NCBI RefSeq assembly: GCF_910592395.1
Contig: NC_088315.1
Location: forward strand, 2,234,501 to 2,298,500
Reading direction: 5' to 3'
DNA: 64,000 nucleotides
From: Lineus longissimus
Lineage: Eukaryota > Nemertea > Pilidiophora > Heteronemertea > Lineidae
Shown here in pieces: positions 3,001 through 47,300 of the stretch. How positions within the stretch are numbered: the stretch's first letter is position 1; the number at the start of each line of letters is the position of its first letter. The notes under the pieces are model-generated. The model saw nothing but the letters and a program-made list of their open reading frames with translations. It was not told the DNA's origin and did no database searches. The position numbers and the translations under genes are program-made.

Positions 3001-4544
3001 TACCTAAGACTGAGCATTGAGAATACGGATGACAATTACGGCCAAGCCGCCAGTCAATCTCACCAGATCTTTAAATCAATACAAGCAGACCATCACTTGA
3101 GAAATCATTTGTGCATCTGACTGCATGTCAGGCTGTGCTGGTTGTGCAATGATTGGTTTGATGTAGTGAGGCAGGCAGGATGTGGACAATAATGTTCTCA
3201 TCATATCCATTTAAACCTTTACATGTAGCTGCAAAAGTCATGTATGCTCACAAAAAACATGTTTTTCACCACATGTCTTGTTGTCAAATATGATCCTCAT
3301 TAGGCGAGGCTATTGGCAACCCTAAGGACCAGCTGTGACAGGACCCAGCCCCTCACTGAGAGGGATCATCGGGTCCTATTGTCTCATACTAGATCTGAGA
3401 CAGATGGCCTGGTGTCCAGTCTTTGTGACAGGTCAAGGCATGAAGACCATACAGGCACAACTAGAAGATGATAAATATAGAATGTGCCAGGCTGCTGGAG
3501 AGTTTAGCTGTCCCTGTCTGCATTCAGGGACGCAATCAGTGGAGACTTTGTCGAGTTCAGCTGAGACATTGGGGTGAACGCTCAGCAGAATGTGGGGCTA
3601 ACTTAGTTATAGTGCGAGCATGTTTTCTTTGGCTGAATACCATAATGGTTGCTGGTTCAACCCCATGTTTGCAGAGTGCAGAAATAATCCAAAACTCGAA
3701 GCTGAGGCTCTGAATGTGGGCAAGATAATGGCAACTCTTAATACATGTAGTTTGTATTCAATTGATAGCAGGGTAGCCTAAAGTTATCGAAGCACATTAC
3801 AGGTCATCAAGACCCCCTAGCATACTGATAAGGAACTAATCTGGTCTTTACCACTCTTCATCACTCTCCGCAAACACATCCCATGTTGTGATCAGCAATA
3901 TGCATCCCGACAACTCCGCCATAAATGCGAAAATTTACGACCATATGCAAATGAGGAAAAAGATTGATTTGTGCGATAATTGGTCAAAATTGTCAGTTTT
4001 GAATCTGGAATAATTAGATTCCATAACGGCATGGCGGAAATTAGCCGAACTGTGGAGAATAAAAAAGCAATGTGGTGAAAAATAAGACTGGCTGAAAAGA
4101 GGTAGATTAGAAAATCGCCATGTGAGTATGATACAATGGATCGACAGGCAAACCATCTTTACATACACTTACAGTGCTCTCAGAATGAGAAACAAGATTT
4201 TCATGGAAAGAAGCTCAGGGACAAGCAATCCTGGCAACTCATCTCAACTCTAAGCGGTAGTGAGACTGATCTGATAAACCTATGGAAAGCCTTCTCAAAT
4301 ACAAAATGAAAGATTAGATTTTTCCCTCTGTTGATCCCAAGGGGAACATTCATTTCACGCCTCTGACAAATCTTAATTGAACGACTCGGATGGGTAACTC
4401 GAGTATAATTCGCGTTGGGGAGCTGACATCTGGACCATACAACCAGGTCATTTTCACCCTGCGCCGGTAAGGTTTTGGTTTTTTGTGAAAAAGGAAGGAC
4501 TTGTTATAACTTGGAATGTAAAAGTAACAAGAATCATAACATAC
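1..4544. other. Left-edge non-coding stretch (probably LNX intron 1 of the coding part)
   Basis: No open frame here has convincing splice sites or recognisable protein similarity on either strand. Because the LNX RING exon at 4545-4930 ends in a good donor on the minus strand, this stretch is most simply an intron leading towards PDZ exons beyond the left edge. It contains one 111-bp tandem duplication, annotated separately. Confidence 0.5.
1535..1770. repeat. Two-copy tandem repeat, about 111-bp unit
   Basis: A block beginning AGGATTTCCAGAAAAGCT at 1535 recurs at 1646. Both copies end in a stretch reading CCACCAGATGGAAGCACT followed by AAGTTCAG. The second copy carries a small internal insertion (a repeated 'agtgccatct') and a few substitutions. 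No coding potential is visible. Confidence 0.85.
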
Positions 4545-4930
4545 CTTCTAACCATGATGCTAGCCAGCATACAATCCTGTAACGTCAATGGCTGCCGGTC
4601 TATTGGGCACATCTTCTGTATATGGAGGTAGTTCTTCAAACACCTTGAACAGAACGTGTGGCCACATTTCGTGTCCAATGGATCTACTAACGGCTGTAAA
4701 CAAATATGGCATAATAAATCCTCATCGACTTGCTGGGAGTAGTCGTAAAGATGTGTTCCCTCAATCTCATGGAATTGCCCACAGTTGTGGCATAAGATTG
4801 CCTCGCTGGGCTTACGAGGGAGGGTTCCATCACGCTTCTTAGTGCTGTGTGTAGGAGTACTGGCAGAAGATGCCGTCTCGTGTGGGAGCGTTTTTACGCC
4901 AAAATCACGATCCACCTGTTTATAATCCAT
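4545..4930 (-). CDS. LNX: LNX-family E3 ubiquitin ligase, RING-containing first coding exon (partial gene)
   Basis: This exon encodes 129 residues of a Ligand-of-Numb-X-type ubiquitin ligase. Known LNX proteins ubiquitinate Numb and other cargo bound by their PDZ domains. In the translation a basic N-terminus is followed by a CHNCG zinc-knuckle at about residues 47-51, then a RING at 74-111 (CHIC, CGHTFC, SRC, CPIDR; the last ligand is Asp, as is usual for LNX), then the downstream Cys of the second zinc motif. The spacing CHNCG...HLY...VDEDLLCHICLQPL...DPLDT is typical of LNX1/LNX2. The exon runs 4949-4545: an acceptor (TTTCAG) lies just before it, the first ATG in good context (CCAATGG) is at 4930, and the donor GTATGT follows LASIMVRR. 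An acceptor before the ATG means at least one upstream 5' UTR exon. PDZ exons are not in the window. Confidence 0.85.
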
Positions 4931-4949
4931 TGGACATTATCTTTAAAAC

Positions 4950-29689: not shown

Positions 29690-32600
29690 ATGGCATCAAC
29701 CGCCTCATTTGATTGGTCTGAGTTAAACGAGAGCCTTGAATCCAAGTTCAAAGAATACAATAGAAAGTTTAATTCTAAGGTAAGGAGTTTATCAAATAGG
29801 CCCCTATGCCTATGGAATCTTGAATTTTTAGTCTTATTTTTTACTTTTTCTATGCCTTTGTGTTAACTTGTCTCATGATGACGCCCTGCTGGAAGAAAGG
29901 ATCAGGGGTAAAATTACCCATTATCAGGTCAACATTCAACATGTCGACAATTTCCAAAATAGGCAGTTGCCCCCCCCCCCCCAGACAGTGCCGAAAATCA
30001 TGTTTCAGAGAGCCTCCTGTCCCCCCGGACCAAAAAGTTAGATATGGTCATGGTAGGAGTTTGAGCCCAACAGTTTACCACTGCTGTGTAGCTCACAATC
30101 GAAGAAGCCGAAGTCCATGTGCTCAATCTTGGGCCCATTTTGTAGTCTGATAGTGATACGTTGACACAGTAAAACCTGTACGTTGCCATTAGAGACCATA
30201 CTGAGATGCAGGATTACAGTCTTAGAATAGTCCTGTACCTGCTGTTTTCTTCCAGGTTGGAGCAGAACATATGACTTTCTCTTCATGGAAACACTTCACA
30301 GGAAACATTTGCTTCAATCACATCAACCGTTGTGATATCTATGAAGCACTTCATGATTGTGGTAAAGGCCGAGAAGGGTATGTTGGAAGTTTTATGAAAA
30401 CTTGACAAGAATTTGTTAAATCTGTTAAAATCAGACAGTCAGAAAGTGTGAGTCGAGTATAACATGAGCACCAGTACTGTAGAATCTCTCTCCAAGCATC
30501 TAAGATGCTCTTTGGGCTGTCAAATACTGTCCTTGCTAGGGATGCGATGACAGAGATCAAATGGTATCACTGGGTATAGAGTGGGAAACCTGCTTAGAAG
30601 TGTCCTTTATTAAGAGACCTTGCAAAATTACAAAATTCTTGTTCAATTGCAGATGTGAAACATTACAATTCCAACCATTCAAAAAGGCACTCGAGAAATT
30701 ATTTGGCCAAGAGAGGAGCCGCCAGGATGCCAGTTGTCCTTCAGAAGTTTCTGAGAAGGTCCTCCTATCAGAGGTCATTGATAGTCCAATCAGGGTATTT
30801 TCATTTTCCCATGTAAGTATTCTTGGAAGAACATACCAGTAATATTTGCCTGAAAGTATTGGAAATAAGTTGTCAAATTGGACAGTCAAGGCAACATATC
30901 TTGCTTTAGAAGCCTTCCACTGTCTTATTTCTGAATGGAGTATCCGAACTGTTAAGTTGGGTTGATGTACCATATACTTAATAATGTTAAGACGAATAAA
31001 AACAAAACATTTTCTAAGTCTGGTACAAAAAATGTAAAAGCTAATCATAATATTTTTGCATAAGCACAATAAAGATGTTTTTCTGTAATGGCCGGCAGAT
31101 ATCAAGAAATACAAAATGCTGCCAACCAAGCGGGGTTGCCAATTCCACAATTTCAGACACTGGTGACCCATCACCCATCCAGCATCAGGGGCTACCTGTT
31201 TACTCAAAAGTACATGAAACTATATTGAAATTGCTTCTATTCATTGGTGTATGTTCTTATCTTCAGTTCCTCAAGTTCCTCCTAGCAGGTACATCCGCAA
31301 ATGAATCAAATATCTCGAAGTACGCAAGTGAATCGGGTGCAACTCTCAAAGCCATGGCAAAAACTTCGATAAATGAACTAACCGATATTGGTGTTGGTGT
31401 TGGATGGATAGGGCCTGTTGCTGCTTTGTTGAAGAAAATATGGGAACATTTGAAGGCCTACCGAGATATACCAGTTGTCCTAAAACATTTTGCAGAGATG
31501 TTGGTATACCTTACTGATGTATTAGACTTCATTAAGAGAAACGAACTATACGAAGTGGAAATGACACGAAGGAGACTAAATGGTCTTGAAGAGATTCTGA
31601 AGGAGTCTAAGCTTCTTTTTGAAAAGGCCTCAAAAAAGTCTGCAAAAAAAGTTAGCAAGTTCTTTGAAGCACCAGAAAATATAGAGATATTAAAAGATCA
31701 GGAAAATAAAATTGTCAATTGGATGCAGTCAGTATACTTTATGCAGCTGACTGAGAATCAACAATTGAATAAAGAGATGCATAAAGATATAAAGGAAGTG
31801 CTTCAAGGTAGGGTTAATCTCTAGTTTTACTGTGAAATAGAATGTTCAAATGCTCTGTGAAAGCATAACTAGTTCGAATCTCATCACGTACTCAGTATAT
31901 TTTAGTCCTTAGATTGTCAAAAATGGTGTAGTGCGTTGTATTTCCCCAGAGAAGACATGGATGACACAAGTGGAAAAACGATTTTCAAGTTGATGATAAA
32001 AATCTTCCTGAAATTTGATTGAGTAATCGAATATTTTTTTTAGTTTTGCGCTATGGTAATCTTTTTTGAGGACTTCAGACCACAACCGGTAGACTTCATA
32101 TACCTGGGTAGAATCTTTAGTTTGCCCTGGTATAGGCGCTTCCGTACAAGGAATGTTGGCTATGTCTCATTCAAAGGACGGTGAAGAGCGCCTGTACATC
32201 TACAAGGAAATTGACTGGGACTAAAATGCCCAACCGAACAATGTAAGTTTTCTTATTCAAAGAAATAATTCTTGATTTCAACACCTCTTCCAGCTGTGGT
32301 GCAATCAAAAACAAAACGTGATGTCATAGGTGAAATGTTTGTTACGTTTCTGTGTGGTAAGTAAAGTGGTGCGACCGGCGACAAAGTCGTGACAACATTG
32401 ATATGAAGACTGTGGTTGGAATGCGGCTGCCGATTAGTTTCATAACCATCACTTGCAATGTTAGTATTGTTAATATCTCTCACTTGCAAAGCGCTCAAAA
32501 CCCATGTAAAGGTTCTTCGTTCAGTAGACAGTTATTGCCTATTCAAGACCTGGATCTGAATACTGTGGTAGTCTATATCAGCAAGAATAATAAACATATG

Positions 32601-35600
32601 AACTCCTGAATATGGAAAATGGTCAAAATATTGAGTTATTATTTGAAATTGTTTTTCAAGGAATTTACCGTCGGGGATTTGATGAGGATGGCTTCAAGAA
32701 AACGGTGGAGGAGATATTCAGGCGCTTCGACATCAGTAAGTTATCTCTTGCATCTTCACAGTTCATACACGTTAAGTTTTTAATCTTACAGACACACCAA
32801 TGTGTTATACAATCCTAAAAATGTTAGAATTGGTTTCAGGTATAGTTATGTCCTTCACATGTTTAGCAGTATTTCTACAAGACAGAAGATTGCTAGGAAA
32901 TGCAAGGGACATTTTGTACATCCACCTTTTATGACACAAAATTAAGAGTTATAAGTGAGCCACGGCAGGGGAAGTTACATATTGCCAATATTGAACCAAG
33001 TTTATGTTTCAACAGGTCCCCCAGATGAAGGTGTCAGTGTCCCAGGAAGGGGCTTCCCATCACAAGTGCAACCAGGCGAGGGAATTCAAGCATTGAGCCA
33101 AGGCAACTCTGGTCCGATTCAAGCTGCAGATGATGAAGCTAGTGGTCCTGTCTCCTATTCCATTGGTGAAATAAGCATGTCAGCGCCACCTGTTGGTCCT
33201 ACACGTAAGATTGAACTGTTGTGTTTCAACACCTACAATATTACACTGGTTTGTTGATCTGGTAAGGAGGTGAAATCCAGCTTTCTGTTTCACAGGAGAA
33301 CTTTCAATTCGATAATTTACCGAACAGTGATTTGGTAGTGTTTAAAGGGGTACACCGATTTTATTTACTGGTGGCTGTGAAAGCAGAAAGATTGCTATGG
33401 TAAACTGATTGCAGTTGAATCAGGATTTTATGCTAAAGCATTGAATTCCATTGACTGGAATATTTTCAGAATTTGATGGATTCAGATTTTGGCAGGAAAT
33501 GAGTGTTTTTTGGTGAATTTTTATTTCCTCCTTCGATGAATTATTTTATAACTTTGCACTTTTTTCCACCACAGTCCAAATGACCCATCGGAAAAGACAG
33601 CCCGACTCCCCTTCATCAAGGCCCAGCCAGACACATGGACATGGACCATCAGACAGTGTTTCCCCATCTACTTCGAGAAAAGGAAATTTCACAGACACGC
33701 AGCCTCGCAGTGGCAGTCAAATCGAACCAGAAGTGCCAGTCATTCCATCGGCTCCTCCAGAAAGTATACCACCTGGTCAAAATCAGTATAATATGCCACC
33801 TTCAGAAAATCAGGCCTCCTCTACCACTCCAACACCTAGGGGTGAAGGTCATATCCATGGAAACCCAGTCAGGCCTAAAGCCCCTCCAGTTGAAAGACAT
33901 CAAAGGCCACTGCCAAGTAATACATCAGCAACTGAACTCATTTTGAAAGAGGGTAAGTCAACTGCATGAGAGGAAAATATATAGGTTTTTGTATTTTCAT
34001 AATTTTCTGTCCCTCGAGATGCAAAAATCTGCTCCTAAATGCCTGGTAGGCTCCTACTTTTTCTGGTTACTACCAGAACTTTTGAACCCCCTGTTTAACC
34101 ACTTGCCCTCAAGCAGATTAGGATCCACCCTTGAAAGTATTTTTTATCTATTGGCTTTACTTTAATTAATTTTGCTACAGCCCCTAACATTATGATAAAG
34201 AACTTAATTCATCCTATAAAAACAAAATCAGATATATTAAGCAAACAAAGTCAGAGTCTGACGAAGTCAACAACAGTAATAAGACAGGTCTGGTGTGACT
34301 TTTGAATGTGAAAAACATTGATAATTCCTAGATCCGATCTTTCAGTGTCTGTAAACTCCTTTTTCAGGTGAAGATATAAGTGATGTGCTGCTTTGGGTTA
34401 GTGACCATTTTGGAAATAGTGGGTTCTTAAATTTTGCCCGCTCTTTGCCAGGTAAGTACTCCCTTAGAAAATTGGAGGAGCTGTCATTTCTCCCGAAACC
34501 TTGGCTGTCACCTCAGTTTTGGTTGACATTTTAGCTCCACCCTTGCAGTGTTCGGTTAGGCAACCAATACCTCCAATTCGTTATCAATTCCTTTAACTCT
34601 GGTGTAAAGGCTTGGCAAGTATAGCTTGGAAGTTTAGTTATATAACTTGATGTTAAGCGTTTTGCAGATTTGGTAGGTCACTATACAGGGTACTTCCATC
34701 CCAAGCATACTTAACTATCTAACAATAAAGGTTCATACTTATTCCAGGTCCAGAGCGTCTGAACACACCAGATATCCACGCTGCAGAATACGAACTTGAC
34801 AGACATCACTCTCTTCCCGAAAGAAACATGGCCGTAAGTTTATGCTAGAATGAGTATTGCATTGGTGAAGGGATTAATCCCTTCCTGCAGAGGCACGAGT
34901 TTGAATGTTGTGTGAATAAATTTAAAGCTGCTCCCTAACATCCTCTGGACGTGTCCGGGTTGCTGAACTGATCAGGATCGGAATAGTCCAATATGAATGA
35001 CTAGCAATTGATCGACCTACTCCGAGAGCTGACAGGTTTCTAAAAAGGTTAATTATTTCAGAATACATTGAAAAGGGTGCCATTCTTTCCCTGCTTGATG
35101 ATTTCTTTCGATGTGTTTATTCTTTTCAGGTCCTTGAATACTGGCATCAGAGAAATCCTGCTCAGTGCACTGTCAACACCATGTACCAAATGCTGAAGAA
35201 GATTGGTAAAAATGAAATGGCCAAGAATTTGAAGGAACGTTGGTGTCATTCTGGTAAGTGCAAGAGAGTCCACACCAGATACATGTATATTGAAAAACAT
35301 GGGGCACTATATTTTCCATCACATTTAATTGTAGACTTTGCAAGTAAGGTCAGCCTGCCCGCCTGATGTTTGGAGACAAATTGCATTAGTTGTGGAAAAT
35401 TAAAAATTAAAATAGTATTTGTAAATACATAGTCTGGAAAATAATCATGATTAGATATCACGTCTGCTCAATTTCAGGGACAACAAGACCTTTAGGTAAT
35501 ACAATGAGTGGTGGTAGAAGTCACAATGTGACGAATCACTGAGTGTCTGATACTAAAATTCAAGCGTGCAACTACTAAGCATGAGACAAAACCTAAATGA

Positions 35601-36742
35601 TCTGCGACAACCCTCTTCATTCCCTATTACTTGAAAGCAAGATAGCAAACTTATAAAAATAGCTATTGTTTCAATAGAACTGAAGGAAAATAGTTTATGT
35701 AAAATCTATAAACTTTGTCATGAAAGTAATGTGCCACCTCCTTGTTTCCAGTTTCACCAAGTCCTAGGGCTGCAGTTGTCACTGCCAGTGGCGGGCCAAA
35801 CATTGACAGCGCTAATCTGGCAACTCCACTAGATAACTCAACCTCAAGGGCAGGTACGTACTTTTTTAGAACAATAGGAAAATAGTTTATGTAAAATCTA
35901 TAAACTTTGTCATGAAAGTAATGTGCCACCTCCTTGTTTCCAGTTTCACCAAGTCCTAGGGCTGCTGTTGTCACTGCCAGTGGCAGGCCAAACATTGACA
36001 GCGCTAATCCGGCAACTCCACTAGATAACTCAACCTCAAGGGCAGGTACGTACTTTTTTAGAACAGAAATTGGTACTTCACTGTCGTTTTGGTTGTCTCA
36101 TCAAACATCCCTATGGTGGTTATATCATTTTAACTCCATCCTCACAGTTTTGGGTGACACAACCAATTCCAACAGTGATATATGAATTCCTTAAGTCAAA
36201 AAGTAGAGAGTTAAACAATAATTGAACGTTCTTTTTCCCATTCAGGGGATGTTGTTGACGTAGTGAGTTACCCCGAGTATGACTTCCTAATTTTGCATGA
36301 AGAAGAAGACCTGGAAGATGTAACTGCCCTGAAGGAATTGTTCATGAAAAATCTGAACGGAGCAGAAGTTGCCATCCTTGCAGACTTCCACACAGAAGGA
36401 TCTCGCCCAGATCCTCTCAAAGTCGGTCTTGAAAAAACAACACTAGTTGCATTTTATATCTCAAAGAATACTGCCAATAAGAATCGTGAAAACAGCATTA
36501 TTGCTAAGTTGAACTTTGAACTTGTAATTGAGAGTGGATTAAAATTTTTTATCATTTATAAGAATGATGGTGCAGGGGTTACAGAATTGTTGAAAGGTGA
36601 CATGTCATACCTGAAGGCATTTGCTAGTGCATCAATGACCTACGATGTCACAGAACAGAATTTCATGAAAAGGATGAATGATTGGTTTACAAGAAACAAA
36701 CATCGCACAGAGGAGAGGAGAAAGAAATGTTTGTCTCCTTGA
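29690..36742 (+). CDS. Multidomain cell-death/immune protein: MLKL-like helical bundle, Death domain and TIR domain (855 aa)
   Basis: Exons: 29690-29779, 30256-30377, 30653-30812, 31267-31807, 32661-32735, 33016-33204, 33575-33952, 34368-34451, 34748-34833, 35130-35253, 35478-35495, 35752-35853, 35944-36045, 36246-36742. Phases agree throughout. Residues 1-124 look helical, perhaps DED-like (CDIYEALHDCGKG ... FKKALEKLF). Residues 125-305, one exon, are amphipathic helices resembling the four-helix bundle of MLKL and HeLo/RPW8-type domains, which permeabilise membranes in those families. Residues 330-518 are Pro/Ser-rich. Residues 520-612 are a Death domain (VLEYWHQRNPAQCTVNTMY, then LKKIGKNEMAKNL). 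Residues 623-690 are two copies of a 34-residue linker. Residues 697-855 are a TIR domain (YDFLILHEEEDLEDV; BB-loop-like ADFHTEGSRPD), closest in look to TICAM-type TIRs. I infer an adaptor or executioner in innate-immune cell death. The domain order is unlike MyD88, which lacks the bundle. Confidence 0.82.
35685..36066 (+). repeat. 192-bp tandem duplication containing a whole exon of the DD-TIR gene
   Basis: The first unit starts at 35685 (GGAAAATAGTTTATG) and the second at 35877. Each carries intron sequence, an acceptor (TTTCCAG), a 102-bp exon and a donor (GTACGT). The copies differ at about three positions over the unit. Because the exon is phase 1 at both ends, the duplication keeps the reading frame and adds 34 residues (VSPSPRAAVVTASG ...) before the TIR domain. 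Confidence 0.93.
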
Positions 36743-37058: not shown

Positions 37059-37064
37059 AATAAA
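37059..37064 (+). terminator. Polyadenylation signal of the DD-TIR gene
   Basis: AATAAA 317 bases after the stop codon of the DD-TIR gene. It is the first canonical signal noticed downstream. Confidence 0.5.
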
Positions 37065-38687: not shown

Positions 38688-41600
38688 TCATAACATAACA
38701 GGCCGCTGTGGCATACACAGATTATAAAATGCCTGTTGATTCCAGAAATCTGGCCCTTTCCATCCACACCATCCCTTGTCCTGTATCACCTTTATGTCTT
38801 CTCCACCGGTGTAATGTGGATCTAGGATAAGGAACTTCAAGTCTCCGGTCACGTCATTGAAGTCCACGCCTAGTATTGTGTGTGCAAGGACACCACCACC
38901 TAAAAGATCAAGGTGAAAAGGAATCAGTGGAATGTGGCTTTTAGACAGTCATACATTGTGTAAAGTGTGATAGAAAACATCTGAAGAATAAGCGTGCGAG
39001 TACTGACTTTGTCAGAGCGTCTCCATAAGAGAGTCGTAACCAAACTGAATCGAACCTGGCAACAAAACCTCAAAGTTTATGATTTGGCCTGACTGTGGCA
39101 ACCCACTCCACACATTTTTGTGCATTCAGTATCGTCACTTTCACCAATGGCAAGCTGGTGCAGAAGACAATCATGCTGGTCACAAGTCTTCTGTCACCTA
39201 CCTATCATAATAGGAGTTCCCTGGCTTTCAAAATGCATGGCTAGTTCTCTCCCTTTCACAGCCAACTCGGCACCGGAGCTCACAAACATGAACTTGGAGG
39301 TCACCTGCAACAAATAAAAAATAACTGTCAAAAAGTCATTTTGAGAAACTGCAGATGTATTGTGAACTATATGACATCACTTTATCCAAATGTCGTAGGC
39401 TAGCACTCAATTATGCTGGCTCCCGCGCAGTGGGGCCCGCGTTCCGTTTCCAGGGAGAATCCAGAATTGTATTCATGGATGACTTACCCCAAGAAGATGA
39501 TCCAGACAATAGCCAACTTCAGTTGACCCAATCCACTTTCTACTGCCAACAAACGATGTTTGTTTATCACCAACATCAACCAAGACCTGTTGTATCTGTC
39601 TATGTGAAGGTACAGGGACTTCTGTGTAACCTTGGTGTCGGAACCAGGAGACTATAGTCTGCAGTGACCTGTACGCACAGCCCCAGCCGTTGTCATCAAA
39701 CTTGTCCTGCATGTAATGATGGTAGGCATACGTGCCATCAACAATATATGTCTTGCTCCCTTTAACTGAAACAAACCAACAAAAACCTGGTAGAATACGT
39801 TCACAAGGTTGCAAAATTCAACATAGAATGTAGAGTGATTCTCTCAAGCAAAACTCAGACATGTCTATATCAGCAAAGTTACCAAATATGGCTACATGTT
39901 CACTCCAGATGAACAGAAACATCCTCACCTCCTGCTCTAGAGAGTCCAACATGAGTGTTTCTAAGGTAACTGTCACCGTAGCCTTCATCAGGGAAGACAT
40001 GTCGGCAGCAACACCGCAATGTCGGTCGGGTCAGTGGCAGCATCAGTTTCTGGGACAGATCACGTCGGTATGATTCTGAAACGTACAATAGTTGTGACGA
40101 TGATGATGATCCCGACTTGCGTGCTTGGCTGATTTATTGAAATTGCTGAATGAGCTTTAGAATTGTCTCAATGTGGAACACCATGTATAAGTTGTTTCAG
40201 CTTGAGGGCAGAATCCCCAAAAAATGCTTCTAGAAGGGGCAAGGGCTTGCCATAGATCCTTTGGCAGTGATGACCTTTTTTTGAATTTGTCAGGATTCTA
40301 CAAATGAGCTCTTTAACCTACCCAGATCACTCTCAGACCAGCCTGTTGGTTGAAGAAGTGTTACCAGATGACCTATAACATCTGGCTTGTAATGATAAGG
40401 TTTGGGTTTACATAACCGGTTATCCTGCAGAGAGAAAATTGTCATTGCACTTTTAAACCACATTCTCTTGCACTGTGTGGAAGTTGATTCCAGAGTGTCA
40501 GGACTACAGCGGAGAAAGAGGTCACTACTCCTTCGTACCATCCAAAGAGGAATTTGAACTGCAGCTACCATCTTCTGTAGACATGACAGGAGAATGAGGC
40601 ATTCACTTGAGCATAAGCTAGGGACAACTAAACAGCGATAAGATAGAATTTAACTGTTGCACTTGGATGTGATTATGTAAGCATGCCCTAAAGAGAAAAA
40701 GACCAAGACGTGCCAAAGCCTCACCTTGTAAAATTGGCACATCGTTCGCCCCATACATGTGAGTTGGTTGACGAGACCTTGAAGGAAGATTTGAGGCAGA
40801 TTCCCGACAGGTTCATCGGGACTGACAAGACCGATCACATCAAGAGGTAAAGTAGTCGTCATATACTTCACACATTCTGGAATTGAGACATACCGGTACT
40901 TGTAAGAATTCGTGCCATAAAACTTATAACGAGATTTATGGTAACACACAAACTTGAGAATGTTTTCTCACCACAACACAGCCACGCAGTAACCATAGGG
41001 CTTTATTCATTTTCAATCATTAATGACACTCTTAATGAAAGAGTCCTTCCCATTATCAGTGGTTACCATTGTATCCTTATTCTCAACTGAAGAGCTAGGG
41101 CTGAAGATGAAAACAGTGTACAGACCTTGATTTTGTACGATATATGGTGAACAGTCTGGAACTTTTTCGAATGGTATGGGTCCTGCAATCTGTTTCATCA
41201 CGTTCACATGGACAACCTCCTGGAAACATATTATGATATTCAAGTTATTTTCTGAAATGTTTGTACATTTTTAATTCCTCCATCCACTTGCTTGAGTCAT
41301 TGCCAAGTGATGCCGTCTCGAGGTATGACACTACCTAGACAGTGCCAAAGACAGACAGATGAAACTAAAGTGGTCTGTGCACATGAAGGACCCAAAACGA
41401 AGAATAAAACATGCATACCTTGCTGATTTCCTTTAGTTTAACCTTCCTCTTCTTCCCCATTGCCTCCTCCTCTTCTTTCTCAATGTACTGGAATAAGTCA
41501 CGACATAGCGTGTCGTCTGTGAGCACATCTGTCCGTGCGTATGGTGGGTCGTCGAGGAACATGACGATGTGACTGTGCTTTATATGGAAGGCAGTTTGAT

Positions 41601-43697: not shown

Positions 43698-44386
43698 TTC
43701 TTTAGCTCAGATGGCAGCACCTGCCAGCAGGTCCTGTCAAAATCATTTACCTGAGGCTGATGAGGTAGGCTAAATGAGGAAACTCACGAAACTTTACAGG
43801 GTGGCCCAGAAAGGTTTTCCCTTGCACAATAGAATTCTATTGTGTACCCATTGTCCACAGGCAAATTCATAACAATCTGAGAAGAAAGTATGTCGAGACA
43901 GGTTAAAAAAAACCCAACAGCGTCAAAAATAGTGGGCGCAGATAAACTGTTGAATAGTCCATTAAGTTCTTGACTTATATTCTTTTTACTCGTGAGAAAA
44001 CCCTCTGTCTGCAGTCCGCAATCGGCATGCATTTTCTGCCCGCCGTAATTTAGCCTTCATAAATTGTAATGTAGGATCTAAGCCTAGAGTAACCAGAGTC
44101 TATCAAATAACTCAGGAGTAACCAACCTAATGATATCTGAGGCCGATTAGTCAGTTAGTTGAAACATTGTATGCCATTCGAATCCCTTTGATGCGGCTTT
44201 CTTTTGATCCATACTGTATTCTTTGATAAAACTTTTAACCAATCAAAAAGCGTCGTCCACCTGTCAATCAATATCGCGCGCCTTGATAACTTGTGCACGC
44301 ATGCGTATCGATGGAACTGCGGTTATCTGATGGAGTGGTGTGAAGTTTGGACTTTTCTATCAAACTTGGTCAGATAATCCGCAAAA
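43698..44386. promoter_or_regulatory. Divergent promoter region between UFSP2 and the RBM gene
   Basis: The two start codons are 689 bp apart and point away from each other, so this stretch should contain both promoters. A CCAAT box lies at 44239-44243, about 145 bp before the RBM start. No TATA box is obvious. An 82-codon open frame on the minus strand (44032-43784) lies inside and may be a small upstream or alternative exon of UFSP2; no similarity was recognised. Confidence 0.5.
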
Positions 44387-47300
44387 ATGGACACTCGCAC
44401 TCAAGGCATCGAAGGGAAACCTAACGAAGAACATCTGCTCATACTAATGGAGAAGACCGGTTATTCAATGATTCAGGAGAATGGGCAAAGGAAGTACGGC
44501 GGCCCTCCGCCAAATTGGGAGGGGCCGGCTCCTCCAAAAGGATGCGAAATTTTCGTTGGCAAAATCCCGAGGGATATTTTCGAGGACGAACTTGTGCCGG
44601 TTTTTGAACAAGTGGGAAAAATTTATGAAATGAGATTAATGATGGACTTCTCTGGTACAAATAGGGGTTATGCTTTTGTTATGTATACGAACAGAAATGA
44701 CGCTTTGACCGCAGTTAAAGATCTCAATAATCATGAGGTTCGCAAGGACCGATATTTGGGCGTTTGCATGTCTGTGGACAACTGTCGCCTTTTTGTGGGC
44801 GGCATTCCGAAGACGGCCGCAAAAGAGGAAATTCTGAAGGAAATGCGAAAGGTTACTGATGGTGTTGTGGACGTTATTGTGTACCCAAGTGCCCCTGACA
44901 AATCAAAGAACAGAGGGTTTGCTTTCGTGGAATACGAGTCGCATAGAAGTGCCGCGATGGCCCGGCGAAAACTGATTCCCGGAAAGATTCACCTTTTCAA
45001 CAACCAGATTGCAGTTGATTGGGCAGAGCCGGAAAGAGAGGTCGAAGATGAAGTGATGGACAAGGTATCCTCTCTTGTTTTATTCTCTTGGAATGTTTCA
45101 TCAATCTGTATGTGTTTAAAGGGGGACTAGGCATCCATCAAATTTCCAACACCCCCAATTATAAGGCTTCCCAAAAATTGTCAATGAATTTCCCAGTTTC
45201 AGAATTTGGCCACTGGCACAGAGAATAGAGATGACCAGGGCTTCCCCTATGGCATGCCTATCGCCTATTCATCTTTGATTTATACCTTTGGCTTTGCCTT
45301 CTTCCATGACCATGACTTCTCTTCTCAATCATTCTTCATGACTTGATGCTTTCATTATCATCATCATCTCACTGGCACCATAATCCATAAATTATTACCG
45401 AAATTTCATTGGAAATAAGTAAATCAAAATAGCAAGCTATGTATGACAAATGTAACATTTTCAGACTCCCCCCCCCCCCCCAAAAAAAAAGCCTCCATAA
45501 AATATGAAAAAGGCAAATCAAGAACATTGTCTTTCTTTTAAAAATAATCCAGACTTACTCTATCTTTACAGTAGGCGTCGTAGTATTTAATAGTTTAAGT
45601 GTTTAGCATTGAATCGAGGATCATAAAAGTTTTAAAAGACGTGCCTTATTCTTTCAGGTTCGGATACTATACATGAGAAACCTGATGCTAACCACAACCG
45701 ATGAAACAATCCGTAAAGCTTGCAATCGAGTTCTCGCAAATGAAGATGCTGTTGAGAGAGTCAAGAAAATAAAGGATTATGCTTTTGTCCATTTCAAGGA
45801 CAGGAAGGATGCTTTGCAGGTGAAGGATGCTTTGAACAGTAAGTTTTTCTTTCGTTTTTTGCAGTTTGTTTTGAAACAATACCACTTCCTTGAGTTTCAG
45901 GTCCTTTCCTTTCCTAATCCTACACAACCCTACCTACTCCAATAATGAGACCAATTGGGCCTAATAAAGCTAAAATATTGCTAATCTCATTCCTATTCCT
46001 GAAAAAGTGTAATTATGCCATGAATGCCATGTGTCAATCAATTAAATGGCCTTTTACTTGTCTAATTTCTAAAATTGTCACTTTGGGTGTCTCGACTATT
46101 ACTAATTTAGCTAATGAATTCTGCTTGGAATCAGCCTGCCTTTGAACAATGTAATCTATTCTCTGGAGCTTGCTAACCGGCTTGCATACTACTTTCCAAT
46201 TTGTAGTGAAAACTTATATCTCATAACTGCATGAATGTGTTTTGAGTATTTCGAACCAACCTTTGTCATCCAAGTTAACATGCTTGCATCCTATTTTCTA
46301 ATCCTGATTAACCCCACCCTCTTTCTTTAATCTTACCCCTCCCGGGCTCAAAGTGAAAAAATATGCCAATATGCTATTTCAATTCCACCAAGTCGGAAGA
46401 AAAATACGTACCGTTTACGTTAAGAAATGAGAAAATGTTTAAATGAACTTTGAACCCTGCTCATTTTAACCCTCCCTTCCTCTTTCCTCCTATCAAGGAC
46501 GTTACGCCACAATTGATGGCTGTTTCGTCGAGGTAACTCTCGCCAAACCTGTTGATCGCCACGATTCTCTGCGGGAATATGACGAAGATGAATGGGAATG
46601 TAAGAAATAGTCTTTGATAGTAACCATTATTCTTAGTTTGATGTTTCATTTGTGTGTTCCTAACCATTTTCTTGTGTGTTGAAGTGAAGTGAGTCGCTTG
46701 CTTTCTTCCATTGTTTCATTCTCTTCACATACATTGTGATACTTTTGATTCTTTGTTTTTAAAAACAAAACTAAAGAGAGTCTTGGTCATTACTTTCATT
46801 GCACATAAGAAGATGGTTTTAAAATGTTTATTGACCACATTCTTTAGGGTTGGACAGTTTAGCGAGTAGAAGTTGAATCCAACTCACTTGAACCTCCAAA
46901 GCACGGAGATTGTTTTTATAGGGATAATTAGCAAAGTAAAACCTTGACATACATGTAACACTACTGCGTAGTCAATGATTTTGATAACTTTTTGATAATC
47001 TTTTCTTTTTTCTAGATACAGCGTTGGACAATTCAAATATTGAGGTGTCATTAGCCAAGCCAGTCGACAAGACGGATTGTCGCCACTCGCGAGCCATGGG
47101 GACACGCCCCAACATGCTGACTCAGGTAGCTGATATTAATGTATGCATATTGCGGCTTGCTTTTAAATCTGTCAAATGTCATTCTAGTAAAAAGGCCTTT
47201 TAAAGATCCATAGTCCACCAATGCAGAGAGTAATAACATTTTCCCTTGATTTGATAATTTTTTTTGTTTGTCTTGATTTGGTCGTTACTCGGAATTTACA

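Follow-up and report, generated by a model that had tools for sequence, protein, structure and literature searches.

Here, we analyzed the predicted gene LOC135492573 of the ribbon worm Lineus longissimus (NCBI RefSeq assembly GCF_910592395.1). The gene lies in a 64,000-nucleotide stretch of contig NC_088315.1 (positions 2,234,501 to 2,298,500, forward strand), which we call the window and number from its first nucleotide. It occupies 29690-36742 (+), and its 14 exons are separated by 13 introns, all of which are GT-AG with compatible phases. The spliced product is 870 residues long, has its sole stop at the end, and agrees letter for letter over the 870 residues with the NCBI predicted protein model P0001; shortly before the first ATG there is a stop codon in the same frame. 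A first-pass annotation, made from the sequence alone, had closed the splice phases over 14 exons, which was borne out by our splicing and by the NCBI model, whereas its length of 855 residues is corrected to 870. From the N terminus, the chain would comprise an N-terminal part, a helical bundle resembling the N-terminal domain (NTD) of MLKL, and a compositionally biased linker that leads to a Death domain, with a divergent TICAM-like TIR domain beyond another linker (Table 1). On balance, we slightly favor the view that LOC135492573 is an intracellular Death/TIR-like adaptor carrying an MLKL-NTD-like bundle, found so far in one species.

Exon 4 encodes 180 residues (125-304) and is predicted to be all-helical, in agreement with the block of about 180 residues that the first-pass annotation had placed at 31267-31807. 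Since no relatives of the protein were found, no alignment could be built, and the AlphaFold2 (AF2) models of exons 4 and 14 are both single-sequence models. For exon 4, a predicted local distance difference test score (pLDDT) of 70.2 and a predicted template modeling score of 0.63 were obtained, with helices at exon residues 48-65, 69-91, 98-122, 126-134 (short), and 136-179. The short extra helix before the last one is a feature that we take the MLKL NTD to share.

The likeness to MLKL was examined with human and mouse MLKL NTD sequences that had been verified against PDB chains. With a profile of the two sequences, exon 4 scored 12.1 bits and reversed exon 4 scored 2.1 bits. The exon 4 score was reached by 0 of 2000 single-residue shuffles and by 0.35%, 0.35%, and 0.65% of the block shuffles (blocks of 7, 11, and 18 residues, 2000 each). 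For comparison with natural sequences, 881 overlapping 180-residue windows were taken from long open reading frames (ORFs) in 250 kb of Escherichia coli; the best of them scored 3.1 bits, and none in the helix-rich subsets (21 to 174 windows) reached 12.1 bits. When human MLKL was used alone, local alignment paired exon residues 60-168 with MLKL 19-125 (block-shuffle P of 0.0105 to 0.0225), and semiglobal alignment of exon residues 41-175, which reaches over the first helix, gave P values of 0.0055 to 0.0075. Restricting human MLKL to residues 34-123 gave block-shuffle P values of 0.007 to 0.013 with BLOSUM45 and 0.032 to 0.051 with BLOSUM62. Judged by these sequence comparisons, exon 4 is probably homologous to the MLKL NTD.

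Several results weigh against this assignment. One 7-residue block shuffle scored 23.7 bits with the two-MLKL profile, well over exon 4 itself. The E. coli windows overlap, come from one bacterium, and yield a helix-rich subset whose size depends on the cut, and the semiglobal piece was picked after the local alignment was known. The human MLKL local score was reached by 1 of the 881 natural windows. With mouse MLKL alone, the block shuffles were not significant (P of 0.059 to 0.13 for local and 0.14 to 0.22 for semiglobal alignment). BLASTP of human MLKL 34-123 versus exon 4 gave nothing at an E value of ≤100, the Pfam family MLKL_N (E of 1.4e-33 for the human segment) did not report exon 4, and the PDB sequence search with residues 125-351 returned no MLKL at an E value of ≤5. 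In the same kind of search, PhoU matched the bundle at an E value of 5.3e-4, and ATP synthase b gave a weak match. MLKL was also absent among the best 50 rows of both Foldseek and VIA; these rows held helical proteins of other kinds, of which many were generic bundles, and the absence of MLKL does not amount to exclusion. The first-pass annotation had likened the block to MLKL and suggested a structural comparison: the likeness stands above chance in the two-MLKL profile, whereas MLKL_N and the fold searches with the single-sequence model of residues 125-304 did not reproduce it. In a separate observation, a PDB search with the mouse MLKL NTD matched four RanBP2/Nup358 sequences (whole-sequence E of 3.6e-9 to 4.1e-4), with no single stretch passing alone in three of the four.

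Family searches of exon 4 gave MCAfunc (PF19584) as the top Pfam match, at an E value of 2.9e-4, and its 21 bits are far below the cut-off of 35, which also counts against an MLKL-type bundle. With residues 125-351, Tad4 was second, and PUB2_N (PF25240) was third (E of 0.02). Among nine reversed, block-shuffled, or shuffled exon 4 controls, none matched MCAfunc, while one reached an E value of 2.4e-4 and another 2.3e-3 with unrelated families; the MCAfunc E value alone proves nothing, because one of the nine controls did as well. We take MCAfunc to belong with the MLKL/Cbl-type N-terminal bundles and PUB2_N to be a relative of the MLKL-type bundle, and both are plant families. A term search of the MCA paper gave no mention of MLKL (PMC8049495). 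No HeLo or RPW8 family was listed for the bundle in Pfam at an E value of ≤10, where filters drop weak matches. The Tad4 match, to a type I Thoeris inhibitor family, lies at the start of exon 4 (31267-31467, residues 125-191), and its E value of 0.004 falls within the chance-match range of the shuffled controls.

Exon 4 could instead be an unrelated helical or coiled-coil segment whose resemblance to MLKL arose by chance from a K/E/L-rich amphipathic sequence. The generic bundles in the fold searches, the matches to PhoU and ATP synthase b, the shuffled control as good as MCAfunc, the 23.7-bit shuffle, and the nonsignificant block shuffles with mouse MLKL are all consistent with such a coincidence. 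However, the gap between 3.1 and 12.1 bits for the natural windows and the block-shuffle P values of 0.0035 to 0.0065 for the profile argue against it, and the MLKL family had been named beforehand by the first-pass annotation. We consider a chance resemblance unlikely, albeit one to be taken seriously.

The Death domain was identified by Pfam. When residues 532-642 were scanned alone, PF00531 passed its cut-off of 22.6 bits with a score of 26.3, and the match lay at residues 584-632; on the whole protein, the score was 21.8 bits, just under the cut-off. The best PDB sequence matches of this region were ankyrin-2 and ankyrin-1 (E of 0.015 and 0.19, respectively). The Death call of the first-pass annotation was thereby confirmed.

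The first box of exon 14 is of the TICAM type: FLILHEEED (residues 719-727, within YDFLILHEEED) resembles FVILHAEDD of TICAM2. With a profile of TICAM1 and TICAM2, exon 14 scored 4.5 bits, a value reached by 0 of the 881 natural windows and by 0.3 to 0.35% of the shuffles. TICAM2 alone gave 3.2 bits, which 2 of the 881 windows and 0.55 to 0.65% of the shuffles matched or exceeded, and TICAM1 alone gave -1.0 bits, which 240 of 881 windows reached. A profile of three TIRs (TICAM1, TICAM2, and MyD88) gave 2.8 bits, below many shuffles, and the human MyD88 TIR as the query gave no reported score for exon 14. Thus, of five TIR queries in all, the TICAM pair and TICAM2 alone separated exon 14 from shuffles. 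By local alignment, the P values were 0.0055 to 0.021 for TICAM2, 0.029 to 0.048 for TICAM1, and 0.30 to 0.39 for MyD88, in a test that is insensitive, given a score of just 30 between the genuine TIRs of TICAM1 and MyD88.

The TIR assignment faces contrary results as well. Pfam TIR was not listed for the whole protein at an E value of ≤1 or for residues 706-870 at an E value of ≤10, and the PDB sequence search with residues 706-870 returned no TIR at an E value of ≤5. Foldseek and VIA showed no TIR in the best 50 rows each; these fold searches mean little, because the single-sequence model of exon 14 is poor (pLDDT of 50.5). The first-pass annotation had called the TIR strong by eye, a strength that the searches do not bear out, and had described Death and TIR as following the MyD88 order; Death does precede the TIR-like exon, where the weak similarity seen in these insensitive comparisons is of the TICAM type rather than the MyD88 type. 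A divergent, TICAM-like TIR in exon 14 is plausible. As reported previously, TRIF-like TIRs are confined to chordates (PMC7075850), and the TRIF/TRAM cascade originated only in the chordate lineage (PMC9334734). The likeness of exon 14 may therefore reflect convergence or a common ancestral form.

The order of Death and TIR-like exons would also be expected if the protein were simply a MyD88-type adaptor whose N terminus is extended. The comparisons with the human MyD88 TIR, insensitive as they are, do not favor this explanation, and Lineus ruber is reported to have a MyD88 with Death and TIR domains (PMC9835746). We regard this explanation as very improbable. LOC135492573 was likewise considered as a MyD88 orthologue, and this was thought unlikely.

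It is also conceivable that the gene model is chimeric, with exons 1-7 and 8-14 drawn from different genes. The model is known from predictions alone, its halves are joined by a low-complexity linker, the gene itself contains poly(A)-like hexamers, and homologue searches gave no relative of the same architecture. On the other hand, the phases are compatible across all 13 GT-AG introns, and the NCBI model is identical, although the splice signals behind it may be the same ones. The NCBI model supports a single gene for exons 1-14, and we consider a chimera improbable. The first-pass annotation had suggested looking for the same architecture in other species; the homologue searches gave only the L. 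longissimus protein itself, with residues 1-360 (4572 scored candidates, E of ≤1e-3), residues 120-355 (2483 scored candidates, E of ≤10), and residues 535-870 (7991 scored candidates, E of ≤10, with scoring confined to the candidates sharing most words). Searching the window with the protein by tblastn did not reveal a second copy (best match outside the gene, E of 2.1), and the NCBIfam and PADLOC scans listed no family at an E value of ≤1. Among the literature matches listed, no title or abstract start reported this architecture.

How might such a protein act? From the known behavior of these folds, the TIR part and the Death domain would join an activated complex of the Toll or Death-domain type and would oligomerize there; any role in immunity is likewise putative. 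Oligomerization would gather many bundles, and the clustered bundles could, like MLKL, enter or disrupt membranes; alternatively, they could serve as an interaction platform. In the former case, the bundle would kill and the chain would be a sensor, adaptor, and executioner in one protein. The MLKL bundle is reported to disrupt membranes once its brace is released (PMC8433767), and the MLKL NTDs of rotifers, echinoderms, urochordates, and cephalochordates are reported to kill human cells (PMC11476962).

The position of the bundle bears on the choice between these outcomes and tells against killing. About 165 residues precede the glycine-rich start, and the first core helix starts at about residue 172 of the 870, so that the unprocessed protein presents no free extreme N-terminal membrane helix of the kind reported to be needed by HeLo and RPW8 bundles (PMC12881547). 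Either the protein is a scaffold or the first helix is freed. If it is a scaffold, the bundle would have the MLKL/MCAfunc-type fold but would be a nonkilling interaction module, and the protein would be an adaptor only. The matches to the plant families MCAfunc and PUB2_N and the only mildly cationic first core helix (+2) fit a scaffold, whereas the good score of the MLKL NTD profile itself does not, and cleavage or an internal start could expose the helix. We would put a scaffold a little short of an even chance. Our confidence in it overlaps with that in the Death/TIR-like adaptor with an MLKL-NTD-like bundle, because both hold if the MLKL-like bundle is nonkilling.

As to how the helix could be freed, the tetrapeptide ELTD (residues 161-164) stands directly before IGVGVGWIGPVAALLKKIWEHLKAY and is a possible cleavage point, of a kind common by chance; Met at residue 154 is a putative internal start. 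For one echinoderm MLKL, regulation through cleavage instead of phosphorylation is reported, together with a motif for inflammatory caspases (PMC11932488). In the boldest version, LOC135492573 would give a protostome a necroptosis-like switch made of one protein and free of a kinase, in which the TICAM-like TIR and the Death domain nucleate oligomers of the internal MLKL-type bundle, and proteolysis after ELTD or an internal start frees the first helix as a glycine-rich, membrane-inserting N terminus. We offer this version as a speculation that is quite unlikely to hold in full.

Table 1. Features of LOC135492573 in the window
Feature	Position	Strand	Basis
Exons 1-3, residues 1-124, without recognized domain	29690-29779, 30256-30377, 30653-30812	+	Splice model
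Exon 4, helical block (residues 125-304) whose pattern resembles the MLKL NTD	31267-31807	+	AF2, Pfam, MLKL profile
ELTD, residues 161-164, before glycine-rich start of first core helix (candidate cleavage point)	31375-31386	+	By inspection
First core helix in model, residues 172-189, IGPVAALLKKIWEHLKAY	31408-31461	+	AF2; hydrophobic moment 0.42, net charge +2
Exons 5-6, residues 305-350	32294-32356, 32661-32735	+	Splice model
Exons 7-8, linker rich in Pro/Ser/Thr/Gly/Gln/Asn	33016-33204, 33575-33952	+	Splice model, composition
Exons 9-11, Death domain, approximately residues 540-637	34368-34451, 34748-34833, 35130-35253	+	Pfam PF00531
Exons 12-13, Ser/Pro-rich linker, tandem-duplicated	35752-35853, 35944-36045	+	Direct repeat
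Exon 14, plausible divergent TIR-like domain (residues 707-870), with stop codon	36246-36742	+	TICAM profile
Candidate poly(A) signal, AATAAA/ATTAAA match	37059-37064	+	317 bases 3' of stop codon

In the remaining parts of the protein, residues 1-124 gave nothing credible in Pfam, where DUF3074 alone was listed (E of 0.18). The residues P, S, T, G, Q, and N make up 58% of the linker at residues 353-539 and 54% of that at residues 638-706. The second linker contains a 199-bp direct repeat (35675-35873 and 35867-36065, 97.0% identical) that copies an exon plus its borders. The two copies are exons 12 and 13, and the extra one adds 34 residues to the linker; this tandem duplication looks recent. 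The candidate poly(A) signal downstream is not discriminating, because 11 like matches fall within the gene.

Elsewhere in the window, an exon matching peptidase C78 lies at 39476-39817 (-) (Pfam E of 5.7e-39), probably from the gene for the UFM1 protease UFSP2. RRM exons at 44378-45127 and 45613-45942 (+) (RRM_1, E of 5.8e-26 and 5.1e-7) presumably belong to a SYNCRIP/hnRNP R-type gene, and a RING-finger exon at 4457-4936 (-) (zf-C3HC4, E of 1.8e-8) is probably LNX-like. A tandem immune cluster was considered and rejected: of eight ORFs scanned, four matched RING, peptidase C78, and RRM families, and four, one of them inside LOC135492573, matched nothing.

In mammalian necroptosis, the adaptors, the kinases, and the executioner are separate proteins. 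If our favored reading of LOC135492573 is true, the path from immune signal to membrane damage would be shorter in a ribbon worm, and one might suspect that the bundle has a longer history in animals, or is more mobile among them, than can be seen by surveying complete MLKL genes. An MLKL-like bundle joined to Death and TIR-like domains would be new in a protostome phylum: a 2024 survey of 34 phyla reports bdelloid rotifers as the sole protostomes with MLKL (PMC11476962). The case is a promising lead and not yet a result, because it concerns one species, has no orthologue, and includes two weak domain calls of three.

Compared with MLKL (NTD, PF22215), LOC135492573 shares the profile similarity, with the human alignment over MLKL 19-125, and the short extra helix before the last helix of the model. 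It differs from MLKL, to the detriment of the MLKL assignment, in its internal rather than N-terminal bundle, in the silence of MLKL_N, and in having no kinase family in the Pfam scan of the whole protein (E of ≤1). The plant MCAfunc and PUB N-terminal bundles provided the best and third-best Pfam matches, but these are below the cut-off and the partner domains differ. With MyD88 it shares a Death domain ahead of a TIR-like domain; it departs from MyD88 in an exon 14 without detectable similarity to the human MyD88 TIR and in a long N-terminal extension with the bundle. With TRIF/TRAM (TICAM1/2) it shares the first box and the score with the TICAM-pair profile, whereas it carries a Death domain and, unlike TRIF, has no match to the RHIM core motif [IV]Q[ILV]G in its 870 residues.

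Lineage-specific adaptor expansions are already known in marine invertebrates, and the TRADD-N adaptors among them resemble LOC135492573 in having lineage-peculiar architectures (PMC8195603); no TRADD-N family was found among its Pfam matches at an E value of ≤1. All-in-one chains with a killer bundle are likewise already known in fungi and plants (PMC12881547). Whereas the fungal HeLo/HELL and plant CC-RPW8 proteins are NLRs with N-terminal bundles and LOC135492573 would combine Death and TIR-like domains with an internal one, they would have in common an executioner-type bundle and a signaling module in one chain.

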